64,000 nt of DNA from Candidatus Promineifilum breve (GTDB lineage: Bacteria > Chloroflexota > Anaerolineae > Promineifilales > Promineifilaceae): NCBI RefSeq assembly GCF_900066015.1, contig NZ_LN890655.1, forward strand, positions 1-64,000, given 5' to 3'. Position 1 is the stretch's first letter, and each line of letters begins with the position of its first letter. This document shows, piece by piece, positions 7,093-51,746 of the stretch. The translations under genes were made by a program, and so were the position numbers. The notes beneath the pieces are model-generated. The model did no database searches and was not told the DNA's origin. It saw only the letters and a list, made by a program, of their open reading frames with translations.

Positions 7093-10063
7093 CGACACCA
7101 GCGAAAAGGAACTGGAGCGAATTATCGTCGCGGCGATGATCGGGCGCGACACGGCCGAGGATGGCCGGCCGCCGGCGGCCGCCGGTGAGTCGTTGCCGGG
7201 TCTCGGCGGCTACGTTGAGGGCAACGCCGCCGAATACGACCGCGACCACGCCGTCGATCTGGGCAAGCTGCTGGCCTTCCTGCACGCCACCCAGCCGGCG
7301 ATCGTCGAGCAATTCGATCTGGAAAAGGATGGCCCCCGGCGCAAGACGTTCCTCAACCGCCTGCAAGGGGAGATCGCCAGGCGCGGCGTCATCGATGTAC
7401 TGCGCAAGGGGCTGAAGCATGGCCCGGCGGATGTCGATCTGTTCTACGGCGCGCCCACTCCCGGCAACGTCAAGGCCGAGCGCCTCTACCGTGAAAACGT
7501 CTTCAGCGTCACTCGCCAGTTGCAGTACAGCAAGGACGCCACGAAGCTGGCCCTCGATCTGTGCCTGTTCATCAACGGCCTGCCCGTCTTCACCTTCGAA
7601 CTGAAGAACCGACTGACCAAGCAGACCGTCGAGGACGCCGTGGAACAGTATCGCCGCGACCGCGACCCGCGCGAACTGCTATTCCAGTTCAAGCGCTGTG
7701 TGGCCCACTTCGCCGTCGATGACCAGGAGGTGCGCTTCTGCACCGAGCTAAAAGGCAAGGCGTCGTGGTTCCTGCCCTTTAACCGGGGCTACCAGGACGG
7801 CCGGGGCAACCCGCCCAACCCCGAAGGCCTTAAGACGGCCTACCTGTGGGAGCGCATCCTGAGCCGCGAGGGACTGACCGACATCCTGGAGAATTACGCC
7901 CAGGTCGTGGCCGAGAAGGACGACCGCAGCGGCAAGAAGCGCGAGAAGCAGATCTTCCCCCGCTATCACCAGTTGGACGTGGTGCGGGCCTTGCTGGCCG
8001 ACGCGGCGGCCAACGGCGCGGGCCGGCGGTATCTCATCCAGCACTCGGCCGGCAGCGGCAAGAGCAATTCCATCGCCTGGCTGGCCCACCAGCTTGTCGG
8101 GCTGGAGCAGGGCAGCCGGCGGGTCTTCGATTCGGTCGTCGTCGTCACCGACCGGCGCGTGCTCGACAAGCAGATCAAGGACACCATCAAGCAGTTCGCC
8201 CAGGTGTCATCGGTCGTCGGCCACGCCGAACGCTCCGGCGATCTGCGCCGTTTCATCTCCGAGGGCAAGAAGATCATCATCACCACGGTGCAGAAGTTCC
8301 CGTTCGTCGTCAACGAGATAGGCGATGATCATAGGGGCCGGACGTTCGCCATCCTGATCGATGAGGCTCACAGCAGCCAGAGCGGCCGCACGGCGGGCAC
8401 AATGAATGAGACGCTGGCCGACGTGGACGAGAACGACTACGAGGACGAGATCAACCGCGTCATGGAGTCGCGCAAGATGCTGCCCAACGCCGGCTACTTC
8501 GCCTTCACCGCCACGCCCAAGAACAAGACATTGGAGATCTTCGGCGAGTCGTTTGAGGAAGGCGGCGTCGTCAAGCGGCGGCCGTTCCACAGCTACACCA
8601 TGAAGCAGGCCATCCAGGAGGGGTTCATCCTCGACGTGTTGCAGAACTATACGCCGGTTGCCTGCTACTACCGCCTGATCAAGAAAGTTGCGGACGATCC
8701 CGAATTCGACATCAACAAAGCGCAAAAGAAGCTGCGCCGCTACGTGGAAGGGCATCAATATGCAATCCGCCAGAAGGCCGAGATCATGGTCGACCACTTC
8801 CACGAGCAGGTCATCGCCAAAAACAAAATCGGCGGGCAGGCGCGGGCGATGGTAGTAACGGGTGGCATCCGTCGCGCCATCGACTACTTCCACGCTATCC
8901 GCGCCTATCTGCAAGAACGCAAAAGCCCCTACCAGGCCATCGTCGCCTTCTCCGGTGAGCACGAGTACGGCGGCGCGAAGGTGTCGGAGGCGTCGCTCAA
9001 TGGTTTCTCCAGCAATCTGATCGCCGAAAAGATTCAGGAAGACCCCTACCGCTTCCTGGTGGTGGCCGACAAGTTCCAGACCGGCTATGACGAGCCGCTG
9101 TTGCACACGATGTACGTGGACAAAATTCTGTCCGGCATCAAGGCCGTGCAGACGCTGTCGCGGCTGAACCGGGCGCACCCCCAGAAGCATGACACCTTTA
9201 TCCTCGACTTCGCCAACGACGCCGACACCATCCAGGCCTCATTCGAACCATACTACCGCACGACCATCCTGAGCGAGGAAACTGATCCCAACAAGCTCCA
9301 TGACCTGAAGGCCGGCCTCGATGGCTACCAGGTCTACGACTGGGAACAGGTGGCCGGGCTGGTGAACCTGTACCTGGGCGGAGCCGATCGCGACAAGCTT
9401 GACCCCATCCTCGATAGTTGCGTCGCCGTCTACAACGATCTCGATGAGGATGGGCAGGTCGATTTTAAAAGCAAGGCCAAGGCCTTCGTGCGCACCTATA
9501 ACTTCCTGTCTTCGATCCTGCCCTATAGCAATGCTGACTGGGAGCGGCTGGCGACCTTCCTCAACTTCCTGATCCCCAAGCTGCCCGCCCCGCGCGAGGA
9601 CGACCTGTCGAAGGGCATTCTGGAGGCTATCGACATGGATAGCTACCGCGCCGAAGTGCGGTCGACGATCAACATCGCCCTGGCCGATGAGGATGCCGAG
9701 ATCGGGCCAGTGCCGGTGGAGGGGGGAGGGTATAAAGCGGAACAGGAGTTGGACCGGCTGTCCAGTATCCTTCAGACATTCAACGACATATTTGGCAGCA
9801 TTGAATGGCGCGACGTGGACAAAATAGGCAAGGTGATCAGCGAGGAGATACCTAACAAAGTGGCCGCCGATCAGGCGTATCAGAACGCAATGAAAAATTC
9901 GGACAAGCAAAATGCTCGCATTGAGCACGATTTCGCGCTTCAGCGGGTCATCTTGTCCCTGCTCGCGGACCATGCCGAGCTAAATCACCAATTTTCCGAT
10001 AATCCATCCTTCAAGAAATGGTTAGCGGACACCGTTTTTGCGGTCACGTATGAGACAAACTGA
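7082..10063 (+). CDS. hsdR: Type I restriction endonuclease subunit HsdR
   Basis: Encodes 993 aa from ATG 7082; an in-frame ATG at 7073 adds three residues. HsdR translocates and cleaves unmodified DNA. The N-terminal PD-(D/E)xK nuclease core is visible as LDLCLFINGLPVFTFELKN (FELKN at about residue 171). It is followed by an SF2 translocase with Walker A SAGSGKS (about 320), DEAH box LIDEAHSS (about 425) and FTATPKNKT, and a helical C-terminal domain. The start overlaps the 3' end of hsdS by 11 bases. All motifs are intact, so the system looks functional. Confidence 0.95.
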   Translation: MPHSDTSEKELERIIVAAMIGRDTAEDGRPPAAAGESLPGLGGYVEGNAAEYDRDHAVDLGKLLAFLHATQPAIVEQFDLEKDGPRRKTFLNRLQGEIARRGVIDVLRKGLKHGPADVDLFYGAPTPGNVKAERLYRENVFSVTRQLQYSKDATKLALDLCLFINGLPVFTFELKNRLTKQTVEDAVEQYRRDRDPRELLFQFKRCVAHFAVDDQEVRFCTELKGKASWFLPFNRGYQDGRGNPPNPEGLKTAYLWERILSREGLTDILENYAQVVAEKDDRSGKKREKQIFPRYHQLDVVRALLADAAANGAGRRYLIQHSAGSGKSNSIAWLAHQLVGLEQGSRRVFDSVVVVTDRRVLDKQIKDTIKQFAQVSSVVGHAERSGDLRRFISEGKKIIITTVQKFPFVVNEIGDDHRGRTFAILIDEAHSSQSGRTAGTMNETLADVDENDYEDEINRVMESRKMLPNAGYFAFTATPKNKTLEIFGESFEEGGVVKRRPFHSYTMKQAIQEGFILDVLQNYTPVACYYRLIKKVADDPEFDINKAQKKLRRYVEGHQYAIRQKAEIMVDHFHEQVIAKNKIGGQARAMVVTGGIRRAIDYFHAIRAYLQERKSPYQAIVAFSGEHEYGGAKVSEASLNGFSSNLIAEKIQEDPYRFLVVADKFQTGYDEPLLHTMYVDKILSGIKAVQTLSRLNRAHPQKHDTFILDFANDADTIQASFEPYYRTTILSEETDPNKLHDLKAGLDGYQVYDWEQVAGLVNLYLGGADRDKLDPILDSCVAVYNDLDEDGQVDFKSKAKAFVRTYNFLSSILPYSNADWERLATFLNFLIPKLPAPREDDLSKGILEAIDMDSYRAEVRSTINIALADEDAEIGPVPVEGGGYKAEQELDRLSSILQTFNDIFGSIEWRDVDKIGKVISEEIPNKVAADQAYQNAMKNSDKQNARIEHDFALQRVILSLLADHAELNHQFSDNPSFKKWLADTVFAVTYETN

Positions 10064-10159
10064 TGATACCCTCAGCGCACCTTATTTAATTCTATTTTCC
10101 CCAATTGTAAGTCCATCCTGGCTGCTGCCAATCGTACGCCCTCCCCCTCCCGCCAATAA

Positions 10160-10192
10160 ACAAACTGGCCGGCGCCCCTCACGCCGGCCAAA
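10160..10192 (-). terminator. Hairpin terminator after the Lys-rich mini-gene
   Basis: TGGCCGGCG (10166-10174) and CGCCGGCCA (10182-10190) form a perfect 9-bp stem with a 7-base loop. Read on the minus strand it is followed by AGTTTGTTTATT, a T-rich run. It sits just beyond the stop of the minus-strand gene at 10214 and could also stop transcripts from hsdR. Confidence 0.6.
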
Positions 10193-10213
10193 CCGCCTAT
10201 CGCGCGGCACTGC

Positions 10214-10327
10214 TTAACTCGAACCTTTCTTCTGTTCCTTCTGCTTCTTCTGCTCCTGCTTTTCCTTGATGCTCTTCTTCGGCTTGTTCTTGTCGGTTCC
10301 CTTCTTCTTGTCTCCACTCTTGGGCAT
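10214..10327 (-). CDS. Lysine-rich 37-residue mini-protein
   Basis: Starts MPKSGDKKKGTDKNKPKK and is mostly Lys, Gln, Glu and Ser, with no hydrophobic core. ATG 10327 is chosen because AAGGAG lies 7 bases upstream (AAGGAGAAATATC-ATG); longer upstream starts would add residues with no ribosome site. A TATAAT box lies at 10413-10418 on this strand and a hairpin terminator follows, so it looks like an autonomous small gene. The composition suggests a disordered nucleic-acid-binding peptide. Function unknown. Confidence 0.6.
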   Translation of the reverse strand: MPKSGDKKKGTDKNKPKKSIKEKQEQKKQKEQKKGSS

Positions 10328-10437
10328 GATATTTCTCCTTTCGACACTGAATTGATTGACCGCGGCGGGCCGTCCGGCGGTGGGAGGGGGGTCCGTCGCC
10401 CGCCACGACACTATTATAATGGCAGATCGGCAAATAG

Positions 10438-10518
10438 GAATGACGAATGACGAATGACAAATGACGAATTAAGAATCACTCTCTTCATTCGTCATTCGTC
10501 ATTCGTCATTCGTCATTT
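10438..10518. repeat. Opposed-arm heptamer array overlapping the decarboxylase 3' end
   Basis: Left arm of GAATGAC-type heptamers (10438-10470), a short loop, then a right arm of ATTCGTC heptamers (10487-10518). The arms are complementary and would form a long hairpin. The right arm encodes the last residues MTNDE and the TGA stop of the minus-strand decarboxylase gene. Confidence 0.85.
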
Positions 10519-11983
10519 CTTCCCACGCCGCCCGCACGTGCCGCTCCTCCGTCAGCGTGCCGCCAATCGACAGGCGCAGCGTGTAGCGGCCGTCGAGCAC
10601 CGTGTGGGTCAGATAGAGCTTGCCCGAGGCGTTCAGCCGTTCCAGCAGCGCCCGATTGGCCGCGTCGCCGCCCTGGCGCAGCCGGAAGCAGACCAGATTC
10701 AGCGGCGCAGGCGCGGCCAATTCAAAGCGCGGGTCGGCCGCCACCCACCCGGCGAACAGTTGCGCCAGCCGCACGTGCTCGCGCACCCGCGCCCGCAGCC
10801 CCTCCACGCCGAAGCTACGGATGACGAACCACAGCTTCAGTGCCCGGAAGCGGCGGCCGAGTTGCACGTGCCAGTCGCGATAGTCGATGACCGCCCCCGC
10901 CTCCGTGGCCGCGTTGCGCAGATAGTCGGGCAGGATGCTCAGGGCGTTGATCAGCGCCGCCCGGTCGGCCACCCAGAAGCAGTTGCAATCGAAGTTGGTG
11001 AACATCCACTTGTGGGGGTTAAAGGCGTAGCTGTCGGCCAACTCCAGCCCGTCGTGGATGTGGCGGAACTCGGGGCACAGGGCGGCCGTGCCCGCCAGCG
11101 CCGCGTCCACGTGGAGCCACAGGCCGAACTCGCGGCAAATCGCGCCGATTTCGGGCAGGGGGTCGATGGCTGTCGAGGAGGTCGTGCCCACCGAGGCCAC
11201 CACGAAGAACGGCCGCAGCCCCGCCGCCCGGTCGGCCTCGATCAGCCGCCGCAACTCATCCGGCCGCATGGCGAACTTCTCGTCCACGCCGACCGCCCGC
11301 AAATTATCCCGTCCCACCCCGGCGATCCCCGCCGCCTTGGCCACCGACGAATGGGCCTGGGTCGAAGTGTAGGCCCGCAGCCGTGGGTCATTGCCGACCG
11401 CCGACGGACCGCTCGTCTGCGAGCGCCGACCGCCGACCGCAGCAAGAGCGCCATCCTTCGTCGGCTGTCGGCTGTCCGTGGTCTGTGGTCCGCGGTCTGC
11501 CGTCCGCTCCCTTGCCGCCAGCATCGCCGCCAACACCGCGCTACTGGCCGTATCCTGAATGACCCCGCCGCCCGCGCCACTGGACAGGAACCGCTCCGGC
11601 AGCCCCAGCATCTCCACCAGCCAATCCAGCACGTGGGTCTCCAGTTCGGTCACCGCCGGGCTGGTCTGCCACAACATGCCCTGCACCCCCAGCCCGGCCG
11701 ACAGCAGTTCGCCCAGGATGGACGGGAACGAGGTGTTGGCCGGGAAGTAGGCGAAGAAGTTGGGCGATTGCCAATGGGTGATGCCGGGCAGGATGATGCG
11801 CTCCACGTCGGCCATCAGCGCGGCGAACGGCTCGCCCTGCTCCGGCGGCGCGCCCGGCAGCGCCGCCCGCACCGCGCCCGGCGCGACCTGCGACAGCACC
11901 GGGTACTGCTCGATCTGCTCATAATAGTCGGCGATCCAGTCGATGAGCGCCTTGCCGTGGGTGCGAAATTCGTCAGGGGTCAT
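10499..11983 (-). CDS. PLP-dependent aromatic-L-amino-acid decarboxylase family protein
   Basis: Encodes 494 aa. Group II PLP decarboxylases remove CO2 from aromatic amino acids (or related substrates) to give amines. Typical segments are HWQSPNFFAYFP (about 70-81), SSGAGGGVIQDTAS (about 134-147), TQAHSSVAKAA (about 208-218), DAALAGTA and the PLP-lysine motif NPHKWMFTNFDC. Residues about 161-199 interrupt the fold just after LAAMLAARER. They are encoded by an expanded heptamer array (listed separately) and are absent from typical relatives. The last residues MTNDE also come from a heptamer array. The likely partner is the methyltransferase gene 21 bp upstream on the same strand. Substrate cannot be assigned. 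Confidence 0.88.
   Translation of the reverse strand: MTPDEFRTHGKALIDWIADYYEQIEQYPVLSQVAPGAVRAALPGAPPEQGEPFAALMADVERIILPGITHWQSPNFFAYFPANTSFPSILGELLSAGLGVQGMLWQTSPAVTELETHVLDWLVEMLGLPERFLSSGAGGGVIQDTASSAVLAAMLAARERTADRGPQTTDSRQPTKDGALAAVGGRRSQTSGPSAVGNDPRLRAYTSTQAHSSVAKAAGIAGVGRDNLRAVGVDEKFAMRPDELRRLIEADRAAGLRPFFVVASVGTTSSTAIDPLPEIGAICREFGLWLHVDAALAGTAALCPEFRHIHDGLELADSYAFNPHKWMFTNFDCNCFWVADRAALINALSILPDYLRNAATEAGAVIDYRDWHVQLGRRFRALKLWFVIRSFGVEGLRARVREHVRLAQLFAGWVAADPRFELAAPAPLNLVCFRLRQGGDAANRALLERLNASGKLYLTHTVLDGRYTLRLSIGGTLTEERHVRAAWEEMTNDE
11392..11510. repeat. Heptamer array expanded in frame inside the decarboxylase
   Basis: Read on the plus strand, units such as GCCGACC, GTCGGCT, GTCCGTG, GTCTGTG, GTCCGCG and GTCTGCC follow each other at 7-base steps. 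They match the GGTCTGT units at the window start. The stretch encodes about 39 Gly/Arg/Thr/Ser-rich residues and keeps the frame open. Confidence 0.8.
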
Positions 11984-12004
11984 AGTGTGTCTTATCCAGG
12001 TCTG

Positions 12005-12820
12005 CTATTTGACGGCGACGGCATAAATGAAGCCTAGCTCGACCGCCGCAACGCCGTTGTCCACGATCCAGGCCTCATTGTGGGCGCGCACTCGGGCCAC
12101 CGCTTCCGCCTCCATCGCCAGCACCGTCCGGCGCAGGCCCGTGCCCATGACGACGCGCCACCAGTCGGCCGGCGCGCGCAGCGGCAGGTTGTAGGTCTCG
12201 CTGCTGATGGTGACCCCGGGGATGCCGGCGGCGCTCAGGATGTCGGCCACAATGGCCGGATCGCTGGTGCGGGCCGGCGCGTAATCCTGCGCCGTGCCGG
12301 GGGCAATCGTCGCGACAGCCGCGGTGAAAACGCTATCCAGCGGCGCGAACCATTCACGTCCGAGGGTCGTGACGGTCAGACGCCCGCCGGGCTGCACCAC
12401 GCGCCACAGTTCGGCCGCCTGGGCGACCATGTCCTGGGCGAAGAACAGGCCCAGCACGCACATGACCGCGTCGAATGAGTTGTCGGGGAAGTCGAGCCGG
12501 GCCATGTCGCCGGTCCGCCAGGACATATTTTCGAGGCCACGGGCGCGGGCCTTTTCCCCGGCCGTGGCGATCATTAGCGGCGACAGGTCGATGCCCGTGA
12601 CCTGCCCGCCCGGCCGGACATGGGCCGCGGCCCGCAGCGCCGCCGCGCCCGTGCCGCAGGCGACATCGAGGACGCGCTCGCCGGGTTGCAGCGCCAGCAG
12701 GTCAACGGTGCGCGCCGCCCCGTGCCCCAAAAAATCATCCAGCGCGGCCTCATAATCGGCCACGGCCGCGCGCGCCGCCTGTTGTTCACCCGACCACACC
12801 GGATTTTCATGTTCCGTCAT
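12005..12820 (-). CDS. Class I SAM-dependent methyltransferase (UbiE/MenG-like)
   Basis: Encodes 271 aa. Motif I VLDVACGTGAAAL, motif II GIDLSPLMI and the post-motif FDAVMCVLGLFF place it in the Methyltransf_11/25 group. It is probably a small-molecule methyltransferase; the substrate is unknown. It ends 21 bp upstream of the decarboxylase on the same strand, so the two may form an operon that makes and methylates an amine (inference). ATG 12820 has AAGGA four bases upstream; an in-frame ATG at 12832 with GAGG upstream is equally possible. Confidence 0.85.
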   Translation of the reverse strand: MTEHENPVWSGEQQAARAAVADYEAALDDFLGHGAARTVDLLALQPGERVLDVACGTGAAALRAAAHVRPGGQVTGIDLSPLMIATAGEKARARGLENMSWRTGDMARLDFPDNSFDAVMCVLGLFFAQDMVAQAAELWRVVQPGGRLTVTTLGREWFAPLDSVFTAAVATIAPGTAQDYAPARTSDPAIVADILSAAGIPGVTISSETYNLPLRAPADWWRVVMGTGLRRTVLAMEAEAVARVRAHNEAWIVDNGVAAVELGFIYAVAVK

Positions 12821-12907
12821 ATGTTCCTTCATCGACACCTCAAGGCGACCGCGCCTATCAAGACGCTCAACGCCCAACTGCTCTACTGACCTGCTGACCA
12901 GTGAAGA

Positions 12908-12965
12908 ACGATAGCGATAGCGATAGCGACAGCGACCTACTGCCCACTGCCCACTGTCCACTGCT
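12908..12965. repeat. Mixed hexamer/heptamer array upstream of the methyltransferase
   Basis: GATAGC hexamers (about three) are followed by CCACTGC/CCACTGT heptamers. It lies in the 5' region of the minus-strand methyltransferase gene. The gap 12821-13079 holds nothing else recognisable. Confidence 0.75.
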
Positions 12966-13079
12966 TTCCAAGTATAGCCGCACGTGCACAGATGCGTAAC
13001 AACGCCGGGAGTAAGAGAAAATTCAAGACGCCAAAGCGCAAACAAGCCCTTCCCGGCATAATTGCGATAGAATAGGCAT

Positions 13080-13253
13080 ATGGATTCGGGAAAAATGCCT
13101 AATGAGGATGACGTGGTTCTGAATGAATCACTGAACGAACAGGACGAGGTGGCTGATTACCTGGACTACTTGCTCATTCAGGCAATTAAGACCCGCGACG
13201 AAAAGCGTCTTTCACTGGCAGAAGTGAAGGCTGCATTGGAATTGGAAGGTTAA
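13080..13253 (+). CDS. Small antitoxin-like protein, 57 aa
   Basis: Begins MDSGKMPNEDD and ends SLAEVKAALELEG. The acidic composition and the C-terminal pattern (YLDYLLIQAI...LSLAEVKAAL) resemble the tails of small antitoxins that pair with RelE/ParE-type toxins, but no toxin gene is adjacent. It is more AT-rich than its neighbours, which hints at transfer. Its stop lies 10 bp before the flavoprotein start. Could instead be an unrelated conserved small protein. Confidence 0.5.
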   Translation: MDSGKMPNEDDVVLNESLNEQDEVADYLDYLLIQAIKTRDEKRLSLAEVKAALELEG

Positions 13254-13263
13254 TAAGAAGAGT

Positions 13264-15039
13264 ATGGCCGATAAATCATTGAATAAAAGCGCCAATCTGG
13301 ATGAAGCCGTCTGGGGCCACCGTTGGGGCTACCGCGACACCCGCTTCGTTATCAACCCCGACCGCTCCGTGCGCGTCACCGGCGACCGCTACGCCGTGTC
13401 GGGCTACGACATGCCCGGCTTCATCCCCTTCATCGAAGAAACGCTTGACATAAAGCTCGATCTTACTGATCTAAAGCCGGAGCGGGTAGACAAACCCGTG
13501 CCCCCGCCGCGCGTCAATGCCGGTTTCAGCGCCGCGCTGGCCGCTGCGCTGCCACCCGACCGCATCAGCGACGACCCGCGCCAGCGCCTGCTGCACAGCC
13601 ACGGCCAGACCACGGCCGATGAGGTCTACCAGGTGCTCTACGTCCACCTCGACCGGGCGGCCGATCTCGTCGTCTGGCCGCAGACGCAGGACGAGGTCGT
13701 GGCCCTGGTCGAACTGGCCGCCGCCCACGACGTTTGCCTCGTGCCCTATGGCGGCGGCACCAGCGTCAGCGCCGCCCTCAAGCTGCCCGCCGACGAGACG
13801 CGGCTCATTGTCTCGGTCGATATGCGCCGCATGGACGCCATCGAGTGGCTCGACCGCGAGAATTTGCGCGCCTGCGTCCAGGCCGGCATCACCGGCGCCC
13901 ATCTGGAAGAGCGGCTGGCCGAGCAAGGTTTCACCTGCGGTCACGAGCCGGACAGCGTCGAACTCTCCACCCTCGGCGGCTGGATCGCCACCAACGCCAG
14001 CGGCATGAAGAAGAACCGCTACGGCAACATCGAGGACATCGTCGAGAACGTGACGATGGTCACCCCGCGCGGCGTCATCGAGCACCTGACGAACATGCCC
14101 CGCGTGTCGATGGGCATGGAGCCGAGCCGCATGGCCTTCGGCAGCGAGGGCAATCTGGGTCTCATCACCCGCGCCGTCATCCGCATTCACAAGTTACCGG
14201 AGGTCAAGCGCTACGCCTCGTTCGTCTTCGCCGACTTCGCCACGGGCACGGCCTTCCTGTATGACCTCATGCGCGCCGGGGTGTTGCCGGCCAGCATCCG
14301 TCTGGTCGATAACGTCCAGTTCCGCTTCGGCCAGGCGCTGAAAGCCCGCCCCTCCGGCCGCGACAAGATGATGAGCCGCGTCCAGCAGACTGTTCTGGAG
14401 AGCGTCAAGCATTTCGACCTGCACCAGATGTCGGCGGCCACGGTCGTCATGGAGGGGTCGGCGGCCGAGGTAGAATTTCAGGCCGAGCAGATCAAGCGCA
14501 TCGCCGGGCAACATGGCGGCATGTCGGGCGGTTCCCACAACGGCCAGCGCGGCTACATGCTCACCTACGCCATCGCCTACATCCGCGACTTCCTGACCGA
14601 CTACCACATCATCGGCGAGACCTACGAGACGACCGTGCCCTGGAGCCGCATCCACGAGGTCATCGCCGCCGTCGAGCAGCGCTCCACCGAGATGCACCGC
14701 GCCTTCGGTCTGCCCGGCAAGTCCTACGTCTCGCCGCGCATCACCCAGCTTTACCACACCGGGGTGTGCATCTACTTCACCCACGGCTTCTCGGCCCGCG
14801 GCGTCGATCGCCCCGACCACATCTTCGCCCAGATCGAGCACGCCATGCGCGAGACGATCATGGCCCACGGCGGCTCCATCAGCCACCACCATGGCGTGGG
14901 CAAATTGCGCCGCGACTTCATGGATCAGGTCATCCCGCCCGCCGCGGCCGACATGCTGCGCGAGATCAAAGCCGTGGCCGACCCGACCAACGTCTTCGGC
15001 ATCGCCAATAATATCTTCGCCGAAGAAATTACGAATTAG
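13264..15039 (+). CDS. Alkylglycerone-phosphate synthase-like FAD-binding oxidase
   Basis: Encodes 591 aa. The family replaces the acyl chain of acyl-DHAP with an alkyl ether, the first step of ether-lipid synthesis; close relatives are FAD oxidases of 2-hydroxy acids. Seen: a family N-terminus with WGYRDTRF, a PCMH FAD-binding domain with VVWPQTQDEV and PYGGGTSVS (about residues 135-170), GGWIATNASGMKKNRYGNIED (about 240-259) and SHHHGVGKLRRDFM near the C-terminus. The NASGMKKNRYGNIED and HHHGVGK motifs favour the alkylglycerone-phosphate synthase subgroup over D-lactate dehydrogenases. The final residues ITN and the TAG stop are supplied by the following heptamer array. Confidence 0.8.
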   Translation: MADKSLNKSANLDEAVWGHRWGYRDTRFVINPDRSVRVTGDRYAVSGYDMPGFIPFIEETLDIKLDLTDLKPERVDKPVPPPRVNAGFSAALAAALPPDRISDDPRQRLLHSHGQTTADEVYQVLYVHLDRAADLVVWPQTQDEVVALVELAAAHDVCLVPYGGGTSVSAALKLPADETRLIVSVDMRRMDAIEWLDRENLRACVQAGITGAHLEERLAEQGFTCGHEPDSVELSTLGGWIATNASGMKKNRYGNIEDIVENVTMVTPRGVIEHLTNMPRVSMGMEPSRMAFGSEGNLGLITRAVIRIHKLPEVKRYASFVFADFATGTAFLYDLMRAGVLPASIRLVDNVQFRFGQALKARPSGRDKMMSRVQQTVLESVKHFDLHQMSAATVVMEGSAAEVEFQAEQIKRIAGQHGGMSGGSHNGQRGYMLTYAIAYIRDFLTDYHIIGETYETTVPWSRIHEVIAAVEQRSTEMHRAFGLPGKSYVSPRITQLYHTGVCIYFTHGFSARGVDRPDHIFAQIEHAMRETIMAHGGSISHHHGVGKLRRDFMDQVIPPAAADMLREIKAVADPTNVFGIANNIFAEEITN

Positions 15040-15116
15040 GAATTACGAATTAGGAATTAGGAATGAAGAGTTGTAGCTCTTAATTCCTAATTCCTAATTC
15101 CTAATTCCTAATTCTC
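15027..15116. repeat. Opposed-arm AATTAGG/CCTAATT heptamer array
   Basis: AATTACG/AATTAGG heptamers (left, from 15027) are followed after GAAGAGTTGTAGCTC by TAATTCC heptamers (right, to 15116). The arms are complementary and would form a hairpin of more than 25 bp between the flavoprotein and the adaptor gene. The first heptamer supplies the flavoprotein stop codon. Confidence 0.88.
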
Positions 15117-15125
15117 CGGAGCCAT

Positions 15126-17804
15126 ATGACTCTTCGCCGCGCTCTCCTCGCCCTGGTCGTCATCGCCGCGCTGCTGGCCGGGGGCGTGTATACCTACGTC
15201 AACTACTTCGCCGTCGACGAGACGGCCGCGCCGGACGCCCAGGCGACAGCCGCGGCGACGGTGGCCGCCGAGCGTGTCGCTGCGTTGGGCGGCGTCCCGG
15301 CCGAGGGGCGCATCCTGCCCCTGCGCCAGGCCACCCTGGCTTTCACCGCCTCAGGCGCGATCGCCGAAATCGTCGCCGCCGAGGGCGCCCCGGTTGCCGC
15401 CGGCGACCCCATCCTGCGCCTGGACGACGCCGAGCAGCAAGCCGCCCTGCGCGGGGCGACGGCCGGCCTGGCCCGCGCCCACGCCAACCGGGATGCCGCC
15501 GCCGCCGCCGTGGATGCCGCCCGGACGGCCGTGGCCGAGGCCGAACTGGGCGTGCGCGTGGCCGCCGCCGAACTGGCCCTGGCCGCCGCCGCCCCCCGGC
15601 CGGAGGAGATCGCCCTGGCCGAGAGCGGCCTGGCCCTGGCCGAAGCCCGGCTGGCCGCGGCCGGCGCGGCCCAGGCCCAGGTGCTGGAGGGTGGGGGAAC
15701 GGCCGCCGTGCGCGCCGCCGAAGCCGAACTGGCCGCGGCCGAGGCCGCCGCCCTGCCCGCCCGCCTGCGCCTGGAAGAACTGCGCGCCGCCGCCGACCCC
15801 GATGCCGACGATCTAGCTGAGGCCGAGCGCGCCCAGGCCGCCGCCCAATCGGCCATCGAGGCCGCCCGCATCGCTCTGGCCGAAGTCGAGGCCGGGGCCA
15901 CCGCCGCCCAGCGCGCCGCCGTGGCCGGGGGTGTGGGGGCCGCCGCCGCCGCGCGCGACGCGGCCCAGGCCGAACTGGATCTGGCGCTGGCCGGCGGTTC
16001 GGCCGAAGCGGTGACCGTCGCCCAGGCCGGAGCCGATGGCGCGTCGGCCGCCCTGGCCGAGGCAAAGGCCCGTCTGACCGCCGCCGAAGCCGCCGCCGCC
16101 CAGGCCGAGGCGGCCGTGATGGGCGCGGAGGCAGCCGTCACGGCCGCCCAATCGGCCCTCGCTGACCGCACGCTGGCCGCCCCCTTCGCCGGGGTGGTGG
16201 CCGACCTGCCCTTGGCCGTGGGCGAGGTCGTGGCCGCCGGCGCGCCGGCCGCCGTCGTGGCCGACCTGTCCGGCTGGCTGATCGAGACGACCGACCTGCG
16301 CGAGGCCGATGCCGTGCGCGTCACCGTTGGCGCGCCGGCTGTAGCCCGCGCCGACGCTCTGCCCGGCGATCAACTGACCGGCGCGGTGACGGCCGTCGGC
16401 GGCGTGGCCGGCGATGACCAGGGCGACACCGTCTACCCGGTCACCATCCGCCTCGATCCCACCGACGCCCCCTTGCGCTGGGGCATGACCGTTTTCACCA
16501 CCATCGACCCCGAGGGGGAAGCCGAAGCGATCGCCGCCGCCACCCCCGATGAGATCGTGGCCGAGGGCATCGTCTTGCCCGCCACGGCCGCCGAACTGGC
16601 CTTTGCCACCGGTGGCGTCGTGGCCGAGGTCGTGGCCGCCGAGGGGCAGGCTGTGGCCGCCGGGGAGCCGCTGGTACGATTGGATGACAGTGCCGTGGCC
16701 GCCGCGCTGGCCGGGGCCGAAGCCGACTTGGCCGCGGCCGAGGCGGCGCTGGCGGCAGCCAAAGCCGGGGCCGCGCTGGCCGCCGCCGGGCAACAGACGG
16801 CCACGGCCGGGCTGGCCGCCGCCGAGGCCCGGCTGGCCCAGACCCAGGCCGGGGCGCGGGCCGAAGAGCGGCTGGCCGCCGAGCGACAAGTGGCCGCGGC
16901 CGAGGCCGGCTTGAGCCGGGCAGCGGCCGAGCGCGACGCGGCCCTCGACGTCAGTGGGGCGGCCGTCGGCGCGGCCGAAGCCCAGGTGGCCGCCACCCTC
17001 TCGCGCCTGACCGCCCTGCAACAGGCCTACGATACCATCCTGACCACCTGCGTCACCCTGCCCGACGGCGAGGAGATTTGCCCGCTGCTGGGCGCGCCGG
17101 AGGAGAACGCCCGCGCCCAGGTGGCCGCGGCCGAGGCCGCCTATGCCGCCGCCCAGTTGGCGCTGGAGGAGGCCCGCGCCGGAGCCACCGCCGGGGAAAC
17201 CCGCGCCGCCGACGCTGCCGTGGCCGTGGCCGCCGCCCAGCGCGACGCCGCCGCGGCCCAACTGGCCCTGCTGGAGGCCGGGGCGCGGCCGGAGCAGATC
17301 GAACTGGCGGCGATTGGCGTGGAGCGGGCGCGACTGGGGCAGGAGCGGGCTGCCGTGGCCGCGACCGAGGCCGCCGCCGCCGTGGCCCAGGCCGAGGCCG
17401 GCGTGGCAGCCGCCGCCGCCGGGGTCGATGCCGCCCGCGCCGCGCGGGATCGTCACGTCCTGGTGGCCCCCTTTGCCGGGGTGGCGACGAGCATCGACGT
17501 GGAGGCCGGCGAGCTGGTCGCTCCCGGCGTGGCCGTCGTCCGTCTGGCCTCGCCCGGCTGGGTCGTGGAGACGAGCGACCTGGTGGAACTGGACGCGCCG
17601 TTTGTCAGCGAGGGGCAGACGGCCGAAGTGACGCTCGACGCGCTGCCCGGCGAGACGTTGCGCGGTACGGTGATCGACATCGGCCGCGCCCCGGAGACGG
17701 CTCGCGGCGACGTGGTCTATCGCGTCCGGGTGGCCCTCGACGACACGGAATTGCCGCTGCGCTGGGGAATGACGGCCGTGGTCAGAATGACGAATGACGA
17801 ATGA
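15126..17804 (+). CDS. Double HlyD/RND-type periplasmic adaptor protein, Ala-rich
   Basis: Encodes 892 aa. One N-terminal membrane segment (ALLALVVIAALLAGGVYTYV) is followed by two complete adaptor modules in a single chain. Each has a lipoyl half-motif (AEIVAAEGAPVAAGDPILRL and AEVVAAEGQAVAAGEPLVRL), a long Ala/Glu coiled-coil hairpin, the second half (APFAGVV / APFAGVA), then a beta-barrel domain ending LPLRWGMT. The junction is near residue 470. Adaptors normally link an inner-membrane pump to an outer component and are about 350-450 aa, so this is a tandem duplication. No pump gene is adjacent. The last residues MTNDE and the stop come from the following heptamer array. Confidence 0.85.
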   Translation: MTLRRALLALVVIAALLAGGVYTYVNYFAVDETAAPDAQATAAATVAAERVAALGGVPAEGRILPLRQATLAFTASGAIAEIVAAEGAPVAAGDPILRLDDAEQQAALRGATAGLARAHANRDAAAAAVDAARTAVAEAELGVRVAAAELALAAAAPRPEEIALAESGLALAEARLAAAGAAQAQVLEGGGTAAVRAAEAELAAAEAAALPARLRLEELRAAADPDADDLAEAERAQAAAQSAIEAARIALAEVEAGATAAQRAAVAGGVGAAAAARDAAQAELDLALAGGSAEAVTVAQAGADGASAALAEAKARLTAAEAAAAQAEAAVMGAEAAVTAAQSALADRTLAAPFAGVVADLPLAVGEVVAAGAPAAVVADLSGWLIETTDLREADAVRVTVGAPAVARADALPGDQLTGAVTAVGGVAGDDQGDTVYPVTIRLDPTDAPLRWGMTVFTTIDPEGEAEAIAAATPDEIVAEGIVLPATAAELAFATGGVVAEVVAAEGQAVAAGEPLVRLDDSAVAAALAGAEADLAAAEAALAAAKAGAALAAAGQQTATAGLAAAEARLAQTQAGARAEERLAAERQVAAAEAGLSRAAAERDAALDVSGAAVGAAEAQVAATLSRLTALQQAYDTILTTCVTLPDGEEICPLLGAPEENARAQVAAAEAAYAAAQLALEEARAGATAGETRAADAAVAVAAAQRDAAAAQLALLEAGARPEQIELAAIGVERARLGQERAAVAATEAAAAVAQAEAGVAAAAAGVDAARAARDRHVLVAPFAGVATSIDVEAGELVAPGVAVVRLASPGWVVETSDLVELDAPFVSEGQTAEVTLDALPGETLRGTVIDIGRAPETARGDVVYRVRVALDDTELPLRWGMTAVVRMTNDE

Positions 17805-17830
17805 CGAATGACGAATGGCGAATGACGAGC
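17786..17830. repeat. ATGACGA heptamer array at the adaptor 3' end
   Basis: Six or so AATGACG/AATGGCG units run through the last codons, the stop and the downstream gap. In the gene frame they read M-T-N-D-E-stop, the same ending as the decarboxylase on the other strand at 10499. Confidence 0.85.
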
Positions 17831-17945
17831 GAAGAAAGAGAATCTACCGATGACACAGATTGAAGAAACGTGTCGGCTGTCGGCGATTGGCCGCCCGCTT
17901 TCGGTTGTACGCATGCATCTTTAATCCGCAATAAGGAGACCCACC

Positions 17946-18182
17946 ATGATCAACCTCTACGATACCCACAAACAACACATCGGCGCCATCACCGAGGCCC
18001 AATTGCAATTCCTGCAAGACAGCATGGAAGAGGAGTCGCTGGAGGATCAGGATTACTATCTCGAACCGGCCACCCTCGATTATCTAGAGGCCCGCGGCGC
18101 TGACGGCGAACTCCTGGCCCTCCTGCGCGGGGCATTGGGCGAGCACGATGGCCTGACCGTGCGCTGGAACCGCAGCGAGTGA
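17946..18182 (+). CDS. Hypothetical acidic protein, 78 aa
   Basis: Starts MINLYDTHKQHIGAITEAQL and contains ...EEESLEDQDYYLEP. It is acidic, without a membrane segment or cysteine. A strong ribosome site (AAGGAG) lies upstream of ATG. It looks like a small globular helical protein of unknown function. It sits just before the sensor kinase gene, separated by two heptamer arrays, so joint transcription is uncertain. Confidence 0.7.
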   Translation: MINLYDTHKQHIGAITEAQLQFLQDSMEEESLEDQDYYLEPATLDYLEARGADGELLALLRGALGEHDGLTVRWNRSE

Positions 18183-18276
18183 CGAGTTACGAGCGGCGAG
18201 CGACGAGCCAAAAAACCGAACCCCAAGAGGGCGCAGAGTCGGCATTCGTAATTCGTAATTCGTAATTCGTAATTCC
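18178..18276. repeat. Two heptamer arrays before the sensor kinase
   Basis: GAGTGAC, GAGTTAC, GAGCGGC, GAGCGAC, GAGCCAA at 18178-18212, then ATTCGTA units at 18243-18276 up to the kinase start. The first array overlaps the stop codon of the preceding small gene. Confidence 0.8.
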
Positions 18277-18277
18277 C

Positions 18278-20329
18278 ATGTCCCGATCTCTTGCCAACAC
18301 CGGCCTGGCGACCCGCCTGGTTATCGCCCTGGTGGTGCTGATCATCCTGACCACACTCAGCGCCGGGGTGCCGGCCTTCCTGTTGGCCCGCCGCCAGTTG
18401 GAGACGCAAGCCTGGGCGCAGGTGGACGCCACGCGCCGGGCCACTGAATCCCTCTACGACGCCGCCCTCAGCCGCGTGGTTGACCTGACGGCGCTATTGG
18501 CCGAACGTCCCACGCTGCGCCGCCTCATGGCCGACAACGACCCGGCCGCCCTGCAATCCTACCTGCTGGCCTTCCGCGAGCAGAGTGATCTCGATTTCAT
18601 CCAGATTTGCGCTGAGTCCGGGGCCTTTGTAGCCGTGGGCGCGCCGGTCGATCTGTGCGCCGCCGTCGATGACGCCCTCGATGCGGGTGTGGTTTTCATC
18701 GAGGAAAGGCCGGCGCTGTTGGCCCGCCGGGTCATTCGCGGTGACGGCGGGCCGGAGGAATTGGGCGTCGTGGTGGCCGGGGTGCGCCTCGACGGTGAAT
18801 TCCTGGCCCAGTTGAGCGCCAACACCGGCGTCGATCAGTCGATCCTGGCCGAGGAAGGCGGCGCGATCGTCTCCACGCTGCCCGCTGGGCCAATCACCGC
18901 CGAACTCGTGCCAGAGGGCTGGGTCATCCGGGCCGGAGGGATGCCCTTCTTCGCCGCTCAGTTCCCTCTGCCCGGCCAGGGCAGTCGCCTCTACGCCGAG
19001 GTGGCCGTGCCTGTCGCCACGCTGATCGAGACCGAGCGTGTCGCGTTAACCATCCTCGTCGCCGGCAGCGCTCTGGTGGCCCTGGCCGGCGGTATCATCG
19101 GCGCGTGGTTCATTCGCCGCCTGACCGCCCCGCTGAGCGTCCTAACCCACACCGCCGAGCAGATCAGCGCCGGGCAACTGAGCGCCACCATCCCCCGCTT
19201 CGGCCAGCCGCCGGAGGTGGCGACGCTGTCGGCGGCGCTGGAGCGCAGCCAGGCCACGATGCTGGAAGCCCTCGTCGAGCGCTCCCAGGCCCGCGATTGG
19301 CTCATTGCCCTCATCCAGTCCGTCGTCGAAGGCGTCATCACCTTCGACACCCGCGGCCGGGTCACCTTTATGAGCCAGGGCGCGGAAATTATGACCGGCT
19401 GGACGCGTGATGAGGCCATCGGCCGGGCCATCAACGACCTGTTGCCCCCGGCCGACCCGCGCGAAGGCGAGACTTTCCTCGACCGCCTGCCCCCCGCCGG
19501 CGAAAAGCGCGAGATCGAGACCCTCACCCGCGCCGGCAAGAGTCTGGTGCTGGCCGCCACCGGCGCGCGCCTGGCCCCGCCCGGCAGCGACACGGTGCAG
19601 GTGGCCCTGGTGCTGCGCGACGTGACTGAGGAGCAGGCGCTGCGCAATCTGCGCTCCTTCTTCTTGGCTAATATCTCCCACGAGTTTCGCACGCCGTTGA
19701 GCACGCTCAATGCCTCGCTGGAGTTGCTGCTGGAAGAGGCCGACGACCTGTCGGCCGACGACATCCGCGAACTGCTGAAGCCGACCCATCTCAGCCTGCT
19801 CAGCCTGCAAACGTTGATCGATAACCTGTTGGAGAGCAGCAGCATCGAATCGGGCATGTTCGCCCTGCGGCGGCGGCCGGTGGCCCTCGACGCGATCATC
19901 GGCGACGCGCTGACCATCGTTCGGCCGCTGATTGAACGGCGGCGGCAGACCGTGGCCGTCACTGAGCCGGGCAGTCTGGCCCCCCCGGAAGTCGACCGCG
20001 CCCGACTGACTCAGGCGCTGGTCAATCTCCTATCGAACGCTTCCAAATATAGCCCCATCGGCAGCCCCATCGATTTGCAGGTGGAACAGCGGCCCGGCGG
20101 GCTACGGCTGGCCGTGGCCGACCGCGGGCCGGGCATTTCGGCCAATGACCGGGATAATCTCTTTCGCCGCTTCCGTCGCCTGCATGCCGAGGGGGATGAG
20201 CAGTATGGCATCGGTCTGGGGCTATATCTCACCAAGCGCATCGCCGAAGCCCACGGCGGCACGGTGGGCGTGGACAACCGGCCGGGCGGCGGCGCGGTGT
20301 TCTGGCTGGAGTTGCCAACCGGCCAGTGA
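18278..20329 (+). CDS. PhoR-like sensor histidine kinase with HAMP and PAS
   Basis: Encodes 683 aa. Order: TM1 (about 10-35), an extracytoplasmic sensor domain (about 40-245), TM2 (about 250-272), HAMP, PAS (about 345-450), HisKA with the phospho-acceptor in ISHEFRTPLS (about residue 468), and HATPase_c with N box NLLSNASKYSP, DRGPGIS and GIGLGLYLTK. It phosphorylates a partner regulator, most likely the product of the next gene. The position ahead of the pst genes suggests a phosphate-sensing role like PhoR, although the large external domain means another signal is possible. Confidence 0.9.
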   Translation: MSRSLANTGLATRLVIALVVLIILTTLSAGVPAFLLARRQLETQAWAQVDATRRATESLYDAALSRVVDLTALLAERPTLRRLMADNDPAALQSYLLAFREQSDLDFIQICAESGAFVAVGAPVDLCAAVDDALDAGVVFIEERPALLARRVIRGDGGPEELGVVVAGVRLDGEFLAQLSANTGVDQSILAEEGGAIVSTLPAGPITAELVPEGWVIRAGGMPFFAAQFPLPGQGSRLYAEVAVPVATLIETERVALTILVAGSALVALAGGIIGAWFIRRLTAPLSVLTHTAEQISAGQLSATIPRFGQPPEVATLSAALERSQATMLEALVERSQARDWLIALIQSVVEGVITFDTRGRVTFMSQGAEIMTGWTRDEAIGRAINDLLPPADPREGETFLDRLPPAGEKREIETLTRAGKSLVLAATGARLAPPGSDTVQVALVLRDVTEEQALRNLRSFFLANISHEFRTPLSTLNASLELLLEEADDLSADDIRELLKPTHLSLLSLQTLIDNLLESSSIESGMFALRRRPVALDAIIGDALTIVRPLIERRRQTVAVTEPGSLAPPEVDRARLTQALVNLLSNASKYSPIGSPIDLQVEQRPGGLRLAVADRGPGISANDRDNLFRRFRRLHAEGDEQYGIGLGLYLTKRIAEAHGGTVGVDNRPGGGAVFWLELPTGQ

Positions 20330-20347
20330 CGCACGACCGACGCGCTC

Positions 20348-20383
20348 TTCATTCGTAATTCGTAATTCGTAATTCGTAATTAC
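20348..20383. repeat. ATTCGTA heptamer array between kinase and regulator
   Basis: Four to five ATTCGTA units end at a TACAAT box 17 bases before the regulator start. The array separates the two-component pair, and the box may provide the regulator with its own -10 element. Confidence 0.8.
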
Positions 20384-20399
20384 TATACAATGGTACGTT

Positions 20400-21074
20400 A
20401 TGAAAGTGCTCCTCGTTGAAGATGATCTGGCCCTGTCCGACGTCGTCTCTTTTACTCTGCGGCGCGCGGGGTATGAGGTGACGGTGGCCTACGATGGGCT
20501 GGCCGCCCTGGAAGCGTTCGAGGCCACCGCGCCCGATTTGCTGCTGCTCGATCTGAATCTGCCGCGACTGGATGGGCTGGGCGTCTGCCGCCGGGTGCGA
20601 GCCGTCAGCGAGGCCCCGATCATCATCCTGAGCGTGCGCGGCGAGGACGAGGCCGTGGTGCGCGGCCTGGAGATGGGCGCCGACGACTACATGGTCAAGC
20701 CCTTCAGTCCGACCCAACTGGTGGCCCGCATCCGCGCCGTCACGCGCCGGGCCGGTGTGCAGGCCACGCCGGGCACGCTGGAGGCCGGTGGCCTTTCGCT
20801 TGACCGCTCGCGCGGCGAGGCCCGGCGCGGCGACCTGCCCCCCGTGCGGCTGACGACACTGGAAATGAAGCTGCTGGAAGCCCTCATGCGCGATCCCGGC
20901 CGGGTGCTGTCGGCCGACGCGCTCATCGCCGCCGTCTGGGGGCCGGAAGGCGGCGACCGCACCATGCTCAAACAACTGGTCTACCGCCTGCGGGCCAAGA
21001 TCGAGGACGACGCCACGCCGGCGGCCTTCATCGAAACCGTGCCGGGCATTGGTTATGCCTTTGGCGGCGGGTAG
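20400..21074 (+). CDS. OmpR/PhoB-family response regulator
   Basis: Encodes 224 aa. The receiver domain has acidic pocket EDD (about residues 8-10), phospho-accepting Asp in LLLLDLNLP (about 53), and Lys in DDYMVKPFS (about 102). The C-terminal winged helix has the typical [20 protein letters not shown] and VYRLRAKIE segments. It is the partner of the kinase upstream and a likely activator of the pst cluster through the direct repeats at 21213-21230 (inference). Confidence 0.92.
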
Positions 21075-21215
21075 GGGCAGGGGGCAGTGGGCGATCCGAC
21101 CGCCCACTGCCCCTGATTACTGATCTACTCGCCCAAAACCCGCCACCCGCCACCCGCCACCCGCCACTCGCTACCTGCTACCTGCTACCCGCTGCCCACT
21201 GCCCACTGTCCCCTG
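21064..21215. repeat. Long mixed heptamer array upstream of the Usp-pst cluster
   Basis: A first inverted block (GGGCAGTGGGCG and CGCCCACTGCCC) is followed by CGCCACC units that drift through CGCCACT, CGCTACC, TGCTACC and CGCTGCC to CACTGCC and CACTGTC. All are in 7-base phase from about 21129 to the end. The gradual change shows how units diverge within an array. Confidence 0.88.
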
Positions 21216-21230
21216 TTACCGCTTTGTTAC
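21213..21230 (+). promoter_or_regulatory. Possible Pho-box: 11-bp direct repeats
   Basis: CTGTTAC (21213-21219) and TTGTTAC (21224-21230) are direct repeats spaced 11 bp start to start, the spacing of PhoB/PhoP boxes. A third GTTAC lies at 21249-21253, 23 bases on. A TATCCT at 21264-21269 could be a -10 element 21 bp before the next start. The first repeat merges with the end of the heptamer array. Confidence 0.4.
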
Positions 21231-21289
21231 CGCCCGGCGACCGCCGCCGTTACCGGCGGCTGCTATCCTTCTGCTTATCAGGCGGCGCT

Positions 21290-22243
21290 ATGACCTTATA
21301 TTTTGATTTGAACGCATTGGCCGATTCGGCCGACCACAATCTGGCCGACAGCGATCTCTTGCGGCGCGTCGATCGACGGCTGGCGACTTATTACCTGGCC
21401 GTGCCGCTGGCCGGCGAGGACAACCGCGTCACCGTGGCGACGGCCTATCCCGACAACGTGGCCGCCCTGCGGGTGCTGGAGCGGCTGCTACAGGCCGCCG
21501 TCGTGCCCGTCAGCACCACCGAGGACGAAATGCAACAGGCCATCGCCCGCATCTACCCGGAGATCGCGCCGGGGGCGGGGGCGATCATGGTCTGGAGCGA
21601 CGACCCGGCCTGGACGGAGACGGTGACGGAGACGGCCAAAGCGTTCGGTCGGGTGGCCGGGCGACCGGTGGTCATCCTCGATTCGTCGGCCACGCTCGAT
21701 GAAGTGCTGGCCCGCGCGGGCTACGACTTCTCGCTGCTGGCCGCGCGGGTGTCGGATGAGGCGTCGCTGGCCCGGCTGGTGCGCCAATCGCCCGTGTCGC
21801 TGCTGCTGGTACGTGGCGAGTACGCCCCGGTCGACCGGGTGCTGGTGGCCTTGCGCGGCTTCGGCTCCGACCGCGAGACGCTCGATCGGGTTTTCCCGAT
21901 GGTGGCCCGCGACGGCGCCGATGCTACCGTGCTGCCGCTGTCGCGCTCCGGGGCCAGCCGGCTCAACGACCTGCTGGATGACCGCGCCCCGGCCCGTCGC
22001 CATTTGAATACCTTTATGCAAGACCTGGAGTGCCATCAGGCGCGGGTCGAGGTGCGCCTGAGCCAGGGCGACCCGGCTACGCAGATCGTCAACGAACTGG
22101 CCGCCGGCGAGTATGCCATGCTGGTCATGGCCGCCGAAGCGCAGGGCGCGTTCGTGTGGCAAGTGCTGTCGCGCATCGAGTGCGAGGGCGTATGGCCGGG
22201 GCGACCTGTACTGGTAGTGAAACCTCCGGTGCGGCTGGAGTAA
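21290..22243 (+). CDS. MshEN-UspA fusion protein
   Basis: Encodes 317 aa. The N-terminal 85 or so residues ([13 protein letters not shown]...[17 protein letters not shown]...) resemble the MshEN/T2SE N-terminal domain, known in some proteins to bind cyclic di-GMP. The rest resembles universal stress protein domains ([40 protein letters not shown]). ATG 21290 is chosen over an upstream start because the earlier codons lie in the regulatory region. The location directly before pstS suggests a link to the phosphate response. The domain reading is moderately sure; the role is unknown. Confidence 0.65.
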
Positions 22244-22270
22244 TTAGGAATTACGAATTAGGAATTAGGA
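22242..22270. repeat. AATTAGG heptamer array before pstS
   Basis: AATTAGG, AATTACG, AATTAGG, AATTAGG in phase, beginning at the stop codon of the UspA-like gene and ending 15 bases before pstS. Confidence 0.85.
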
Positions 22271-22284
22271 GAAGAGTCGATTCC

Positions 22285-23298
22285 ATGTCACGTTTAATGA
22301 AACTATTCACAATGATTGCTTTGGTCATGCTGGCGGCCCTGCTGGTGGCCTGTGGCGGCGCGGCCGAACCGGCGGCGCAGAACGGAGCCGAAGAGGCCGC
22401 CGCTCAGACGGGCGCCGAAACTGAGGCCGAGGAGCGCACCATTGCCGTCTCCGGCGCGTTCGCCCTGTTCCCGATGATGACGGTCTGGGCCGAGCAATAC
22501 ACGGCACTGCACCCCAATATCACCTTCGATGTGCAGGGCGGCGGCGCGGGCAAGGGCATGACCGACGTGTTGGCCGGGGCGGTCGACATCGCCATGGTGT
22601 CACGCGAACTGAAGCCGGAAGAGATCGACCAGGGCGCGTTTGGCGTGCCCGTCACCATCGATGCCGTGGTCGCCACGGTCAACGCCGACAACCCCTATCT
22701 CGACCAGATTCTGGCCCACGGCCTGACGCCCGAAGCGGCGGCGGCCATCTGGATGAGCCGGACGACGACCACCTGGGGCCAACTGCTGGGCACGGACGCC
22801 ACGGAGGCTATCACCGTCTACACCCGCTCCGACGCCGCCGGGGCGGCCGAGGTGTGGGCCAAGTACATGGGTGGCTCGGTGCAGGAAGACCTGATGGGCA
22901 CGGCCGTCAACGGCGACCCTGGTCTGGCCGAGGCTGTCCGCCAGGACGCGCTGGGCATCGGCTTCAACAATATCGGCTTTGCCTATAACCTGGAGACCGG
23001 CGGCCAACTGGATGGCCTGCGGGTCGTCCCGCTCGACCTGAACGGCGACGGAACCATCAGCGCGGACGAGGATTTCTACGCCACCAAGGACGCGATGACC
23101 GCGGCCATCGCAGCCCGGCTCTACCCGTTCCCGCCCGCTCGCGAGCTATATCTGGTGACCAAAGGCGAGCCGGATGCAGCCATCGTTGACCTGTACCGCT
23201 GGATTCTGACCGATGGGCAAGCCCTGGTGGGCGACGCCGGCTTCGTGACCCTCAGCCCCGACCGGCTGACCGAGGCCCAGGCACTCATCGGCGAATAG
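22285..23298 (+). CDS. pstS: Phosphate ABC transporter substrate-binding lipoprotein PstS
   Basis: Encodes 337 aa. A lipoprotein signal peptide ends at the lipobox LLVAC (Cys at about residue 22), so the protein is membrane-anchored outside the cytoplasm. The mature part has the PBP-like fold of phosphate-binding proteins ([53 protein letters not shown]). It delivers phosphate to PstCA. A 15-bp hairpin follows before pstC. Confidence 0.9.
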
Positions 23299-31602: not shown

Positions 31603-31646
31603 AGGTGGAATTATACACGACCGCCGACGGGCGTAAGAGAAAAGGG

Positions 31647-51709: not shown

Positions 51710-51746
51710 GCAACTCTGGCGGCACGATTGCGTATAGACACCTGAA

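Follow-up and report, generated by a model that had tools for sequence, protein, structure and literature searches.

The GGGAATC repeats of Xanthomonas and the GGGGA(T/C)T repeats of Nostoc are built of 7-nt units, are mostly intergenic, form convergent plus/minus pairs that lie close together, and are rare between divergent open reading frames; sense-strand arrays lie within 50 bp downstream of stop codons, with some overlapping the stop itself (PMC4692102). The portion of the report on marine Beggiatoaceae that we draw on describes TAACTGA direct repeats, which contain stops in all three forward frames and are found mostly as lone direct arrays ahead of start codons, with only one inverted case; 13 sets overlap the stop of the upstream gene, an overlap regarded there as following inevitably from the repeat sequence (PMC4679880). 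Repetitive extragenic palindromes (REPs) are short palindromes positioned mostly between tandem or convergent genes, with many near or overlapping coding regions (PMC3733652).

The window analyzed here is a 64-kb stretch of a 5.03 Mb genome in three contigs, and four of its genes terminate inside heptamer arrays. The HlyD double adaptor (15126-17804, plus strand; 892 aa with two HlyD-type modules) ends in VVRMTNDE with its stop at 17802-17804, and the first 20 nt of a (GAATGAC)6.3 array at 17785-17828 (plus strand) constitute its last codons and TGA; the array is followed by the loop-like sequence GAAGAAAGAGA and is an apparent left half-element. A PLP-dependent decarboxylase (10499-11983, minus strand) ends in AAWEEMTNDE and TGA, the last 19 nt being encoded by the right arm (array 10485-10517) of a full palindromic element at 10438-10517 composed of (GAATGAC)n, a short loop, and (TCATTCG)n. 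These two MTNDE endings had been singled out in the initial annotation, and both do arise from (GAATGAC)n. The patatin-like phospholipase (39474-40679, minus strand) was correctly described there as ending NYE-stop from an array: it ends in LLNYE and TGA, with its last 13 nt encoded by the right arm (array 39453-39486) of a full element at 39415-39486 between convergent genes; the element's left arm takes in the final A of the TAA that ends the EF-G-like gene 37337-39415. The FAD-linked oxidase (13264-15039, plus strand) ends in AEEITN and TAG within the left arm (array 15027-15064) of a full element at 15027-15114, built of (AATTACG/AATTAGG)n, the loop GAAGAGTTGTAGCTCTT, and (CCTAATT)n, that fills the gap between the oxidase stop and the adaptor start. 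The initial annotation derived this ending from ATTACGA and ATTAGGA units together; the ending is indeed within the array, but an ATTACGA array has TAA in reverse and no forward stop, so an ATTAGGA unit, arrays of which have TAG in all forward frames and TAA in reverse, is required to provide the TAG.

Several single arrays are also present in the window. An (AATTAGG)n half-element at 22242-22270 (plus strand) completes with its first two bases the TAA of gene 21290-22243, and there are two lone right arms of (CGTAATT)n on the minus strand, one at 18244-18275 that ends 2 nt before the start of a histidine kinase gene (18278-20329), and one at 20351-20381 that is located 21 nt past the stop of the same gene and is preceded by the half loop GCGCTCTTC. 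A (TCATTCG)n array at 34-74 (minus strand) lies 13 nt before a start codon and is fused to (GGTCTGT)n at 1-32. Other heptamer families also make hairpins here: one at 1635-1684, from a mostly stop-free family, consists of (AGTGGGC/AGTGGGT)n, a loop, and (CACTGCC)n and begins 2 nt past the TAG at 1630-1632; another at 31646-31736, of the GGGTGGC/AAGTAGC family with its (ACCCGCC)n partner, is situated between the minus-strand genes 30601-31602 and 31784-33328. Along the array at 21138-21216 the unit changes, from ACCCGCC through ACCTGCT to ACTGCCC/ACTGTCC, in what looks like the passage of one family into another.

Repeats with other periods were noted as well. A 64-bp unit in about two copies at 51582-51714 contains the palindromic CCCTCCCGCCGGGAGGG and starts exactly on the last base of gene 50302-51582, forming another palindromic repeat at a gene 3' end. 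The genome is 65% GC, and an AT-rich 20-bp tandem repeat (ATAGATGATAATCTAACATG, 2.8 copies) at 49011-49065 lies between the minus-strand genes 47562-48902 and 49104-49865. Octamer arrays of CTTTGCGT or ACGCAAAG are found in the gap at 31745-31768 and past the stops of patatin-like homologues in congeners (L192, L193), and period-8 arrays may follow a rule similar to that of period-7 placement.

Beyond the window we surveyed three 400-kb stretches, A (C1:1,000,001-1,400,000), B (C1:1,780,001-2,180,000), and C (C2:1-400,000), for a total, window included, of 1.264 Mb or about 25% of the genome. Genes were called using a home-made caller with a simple codon model, and genome-wide totals are from pattern searches. 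At a score of at least 14 the surveyed DNA contains 198 non-coding and 37 coding period-7 arrays, with non-coding DNA accounting for 16% of the sequence; neighboring periods reach at most 41 non-coding arrays, and the 134 of period 14 are a harmonic of period 7. This dominance of period 7 in non-coding DNA indicates that the arrays are not due to chance. Arrays of the AATGACG/AATTACG/AATTAGG type (AAT arrays) represent 90 of 269, and GAATGACGAATGACGAATGACG has 63 matches genome-wide with none for the reversed control. Several arrays fall within called genes, with wrong start calls as a possible cause.

In the same 1.264 Mb, 33 genes stop at least 4 nt within heptamer arrays of several families. 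AAT units provide the endings MTNDE, MTNYE, ITN, NYE, and NDE, TGACCAC units write MTTDH or TTDH, and GGGTGGC-like units write VAGGE, VAGSG, and VTGGG. The proposal that arrays write the last residues and stops of unrelated genes thus holds, both across these 33 gene ends and for the four window proteins, which have no Pfam relationship to each other (Pyridoxal_deC; duplicated HlyD_D23/HlyD_3; FAD_binding_4 plus FAD-oxidase_C; Patatin). Array takeover of stops explains why proteins share odd endings like MTNDE, which might otherwise be read as sorting tags or as a sign of homology. We rejected the generalization that an MTN ending is always array-derived at C:174272, in whose paralogue C:128513 AWEIMTN precedes a different array.

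Many AAT arrays are arms of one palindrome. Among 26 inverted pairs of neighboring AAT arrays the purine arm comes first in all 26, and the opposite order does not occur; the elements are 67-117 bp in length with arms of about 31 nt, and the best copies have GAAGAGCGCGCTCTTC as a short loop or self-complementary core. Single arrays often retain half of the loop, as at 17785-17828 and 20351-20381, and many of them, including 17785-17828, therefore look like half-elements. The element ends are AATT...AATT, and by inspection no common flanking tag is present in the 26 pairs. The two arms match at the level of subfamily (p<0.001), but within the AATTA subfamily the matching of C and G units between arms is no better than in shuffled pairs (p=0.76); nothing thus points to selection for perfect or exact pairing of the arms, a possibility that we rejected.

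We favor the interpretation, at a probability of roughly 0.7, that AAT-type arrays belong, as arms, to a short repetitive extragenic palindrome residing at gene 3' ends, and that the stop codon is a permissive by-product and not the reason for the arrays. The element consists of about four purine-strand heptamers (AATGACG/AATTACG/AATTAGG), a small self-complementary core, and the complementary heptamers, and it lies directly against gene 3' ends, its purine strand being the sense strand, a rule that other heptamer families in the genome obey too. Presumably these elements move or spread as units. When one lands at or just before a native stop, translation ends instead at whichever stop the arm offers first in frame, so that the last few residues are rewritten (as MTNDE, ITN, NYE, or MTTDH) and the protein keeps its length; units with stops in all frames permit such overlap, and stop-free units mostly have to remain outside of coding sequences. 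Elements may survive at 3' ends because this is the least harmful location, or because a hairpin there is tolerated or even slightly beneficial in marking the end of the transcript or stabilizing the mRNA.

Placement relative to stop codons follows a strict orientation rule. For AAT arrays located no more than 8 nt from a stop (at distances of -28 to +8 nt) the purine strand is the sense strand in 39 of 39 cases, and AAT arrays at 3' ends in the opposite orientation are all at least 21 nt from the stop. For arrays of other families at up to 8 nt from a stop, the purine strand is the sense strand in 62 of 66 cases, and 23 of these 66 arrays have no stop codon in any frame. In gaps with room to spare (slack of 122, 171, 231, and 355 nt) the pair lies within 4 nt of a gene 3' end or overlaps it, and divergent gaps are depleted in arrays (p=0.003 for all arrays; p=0.03 for AAT arrays). 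In a rough survey of the AAT heptamer in other phyla, using crude gene calls, the 3'-end orientation bias appears weaker, a result on which we base no claim. Because the 23 stop-free arrays follow the same rule, adjoining gene 3' ends at the same orientation and distance as stop-bearing ones, placement is independent of stop content, and the idea that stop content explains array position is not supported. With the stop codon excluded as the cause of placement, since stop-free families behave alike, the question of why bacterial heptamer repeats hug stops on one strand becomes a testable one.

These data bear directly on the suggestion that ATGACGA-type arrays are a universal stop cassette, maintained since termination in any frame rescues genes with truncated 3' ends. 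The arithmetic behind the suggestion is right, as a pure array of ATGACGA gives TGA in each of the three sense-strand frames and no stop on the other strand, and the overlapping AATGACG arrays are all in the stop-bearing orientation. Intrusion into the coding sequence at 3' ends is also commoner among stop-bearing arrays, 33 of 82 of which reach at least 4 nt into it, than among stop-free ones, of which about 2 of 25 run into it (p=0.003, indicative only, since related arrays were pooled and the counting categories were set once the data had been seen), the two stop-free read-through cases being counted as arrays wholly within a gene near its end. Stops therefore matter permissively, in that stop-bearing arrays intrude further into coding ends than stop-free arrays do. 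We nonetheless regard the cassette as very improbable. Apart from the shared placement and orientation of stop-free heptamers, reverse-strand AATTACG/AATTAGG arrays have TAA in all frames and never adjoin a stop, and an all-frame stop on a given strand is nothing special, being expected in 31% of all heptamers and about 18% at 65% GC.

The cassette also predicts truncation, and the orthologue comparison gives no indication of this. The tails of array-ended proteins were used to look for orthologues in genomes of the genus and in some of the family, with several tails joined per query, and the array-type endings tabulated in the sampled 1.264 Mb were compared in length with array-free orthologues. 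The median difference in C-terminal length from array-free congener orthologues is 0 aa (IQR -1.5 to 0, n=55), with outliers in which the congener tail is longer, by up to 27 aa, and the Pfam domains of the array-ended window proteins are complete to their ends. The decarboxylase AAWEEMTNDE corresponds to AAWAMIREP, AAWEQIRDGGYERQ, and QAWQLIRETSGQ in its orthologues, the HlyD adaptor RWGMTAVVRMTNDE to RWGMTAVVNIER and RWGMTAEVSAD, the oxidase NNIFAEEITN to NNVFAE and NNVFAPETNGH, and the patatin ESDRIATNLLNYE to ESDRIALEMLRLE; the patatin ending is the closest to those of its orthologues (LLNYE compared with MLRLE/MLALE). The initial annotation would have counted identical C-terminal residues in array-free orthologues as refuting its reading; taken literally this refutation does not arise, as the residues usually differ, but the lengths do not. 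As judged from these comparisons, the arrays rewrite only the last few poorly conserved residues without altering protein length, and we rejected the proposed capping after truncation.

Two features of individual orthologues are of separate note. The adaptor orthologues in G004:C111 and G005:C283 each match as two halves with an in-frame stop in the first-half match (TGA and TAG, respectively), which suggests either split genes in these genomes and a fusion in the window genome, or assembly errors. At the end of the A:248770 orthologue in G004 (L167), the C-terminal peptide LTNDELRVTSDE resembles an eroded heptamer array read as coding sequence.

At one locus the arrival of an element is visible. 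The spacer between B:5404-6516 and its downstream neighbor B:6634-7269, the latter confirmed by homology, is 117 bp, compared with about 5-14 bp in congeners (L172, L178, L181, and L182). The array provides the stop of B:5404-6516 (FSN-TAA) where congeners end in FSQ or LSR, and the protein length is unchanged; comparison with the congeners thus reveals one clean insertion at this 3' end. The tight congener spacer is filled by a complete two-armed element, which argues against the arrays having simply arisen and grown in place by slippage from chance seeds at gene ends, with no moving element. Slippage would account for the dominance of period 7, for the variable number and the mixing of units, and for arrays that grade as 21138-21216 does, but less so for the fixed purine-first pairing (26:0), the recurring core, and the presence of near-identical elements at dozens of unrelated loci, and as the sole explanation we consider it unlikely.

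Some gene 3' ends appear to have been occupied by arrays more than once. A period-7 array is present at 18 of 73 orthologous 3' ends in congeners, compared with 7 of 85 other gene ends at the same loci (p=0.008), although the sample is small, the controls are neighboring gene ends, and contamination of metagenome-assembled genomes (MAGs) is possible; the other 55 of the 73 sites are without any array. By inspection, the unit differs from that of the window genome at 12 of the 18 re-occupied sites, one of these differing only by AAT subfamily, and is the same at six. The clearest example is C:121927, with four unit types in four species: the protein ends in RVTGGG (GGGTGGC) in the window genome, RVTSDE (AGTGACG) in G003, RVTN (AATTACG/AATTAGG) in G002, and RVTNDE (AATGACG) in G004. 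In G008, from another genus, the A:248770 site contains GGGGACT/GGGGATT units, the type reported for Nostoc (PMC4692102). Hairpins of TCGGATT-like units (L158, G013) and GCGTAGT units (L132, G014) were also seen past orthologue stops in other genera. It is possible, but we suggest this only tentatively, that gene 3' ends are sequence-independent docking sites, at which the site and orientation persist and the heptamer is swapped between species, with C-termini continually rewritten and length kept; some process linked to the ends of transcripts or of coding sequences would then place, or strongly retain, purine-sense heptamer palindromes there. Re-occupation of orthologous congener gene ends, often by different heptamers, is possibly new, and is the most interesting lead to emerge from this analysis.

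Re-occupation by other heptamer hairpins is also consistent with a functional 3' UTR hairpin, a stem following the stop that ends transcription or protects the mRNA 3' end, with overwriting of the stop being incidental. The arrays are always 3' of genes and depleted from divergent gaps, and the stems are predicted to be stable (median MFE of -38.9 kcal/mol for RNA hairpins of paired elements). We view this explanation as less likely than not, as the elements have no T-run, the C and G units of the two arms lack compensatory matching, and the array is missing from 55 of the 73 orthologous congener sites. Moreover, the stem begins so near the stop that part of it would be hidden beneath the ribosome during termination. 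In the region 10001-23000 there are eight U-tract terminator-like matches, none on an AAT array, and we rejected an intrinsic terminator with a GC-rich stem and T-run; a known structured RNA was rejected likewise, as a search of the elements against Rfam matched no family. For the palindrome that we favor, mobilization by a RAYT enzyme was rejected too: three Y1_Tnp loci were found, none flanked by AAT arrays, one having a short array of GTGGGCA units at a distance of about 1 kb from its match.

AAT arrays are present in all eight genomes of the genus that were searched, are patchy in the family, and occur almost nowhere else in the class, and the AAT heptamer is also found in Nostoc, Anabaena, Planktothrix, Bacteroidota, Verrucomicrobiota, Acidobacteriota, and Promineifilum records. 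To judge from these records, the bacterium of the window is probably a Promineifilum-like member of the Chloroflexota. Samples of 200 kb from G003, G013, and G019 contain no period-7 arrays at a score of at least 12, yet a pattern search finds AAT arrays elsewhere in G003 (59 forward and 42 reverse), so the arrays of G003 are either patchy, collapsed in assembly, or in part due to contamination.

Comparison with the described systems places these elements among familiar company. AAT arrays share with the Xanthomonas and Nostoc repeats the 7-nt period, intergenic enrichment, convergent pairs, sense-strand location near stops, and depletion between divergent genes, and they differ in unit sequence, in the recurrence of a short palindromic core, in abutting genes within a few nucleotides, and in their Chloroflexota host. 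AAT units hold at most GG, with G-runs of three or more only in some other families (GGGTGGC, CTAGGGG), and in the absence of G-tracts G-quadruplexes are not expected; the AAT family works like the Xanthomonas and Nostoc repeats but is not to be filed as a G-quadruplex member. TAACTGA differs as a unit and is not among the array units in the 1.264 Mb; its all-frame forward stops have a counterpart in ATGACGA (TGA) and ATTAGGA (TAG) but not in ATTACGA, and the portion of the Beggiatoaceae report drawn on here does not include an orthologue length test (PMC4679880). Relative to REPs, the AAT elements have no GTAG/CGTC tag, have arms built of heptamers, and were found with no flanking RAYT. The kind of element is thus already known, and to it we add an example from the Chloroflexota, a test against orthologues, a control with stop-free arrays, and the lead provided by re-occupied sites.
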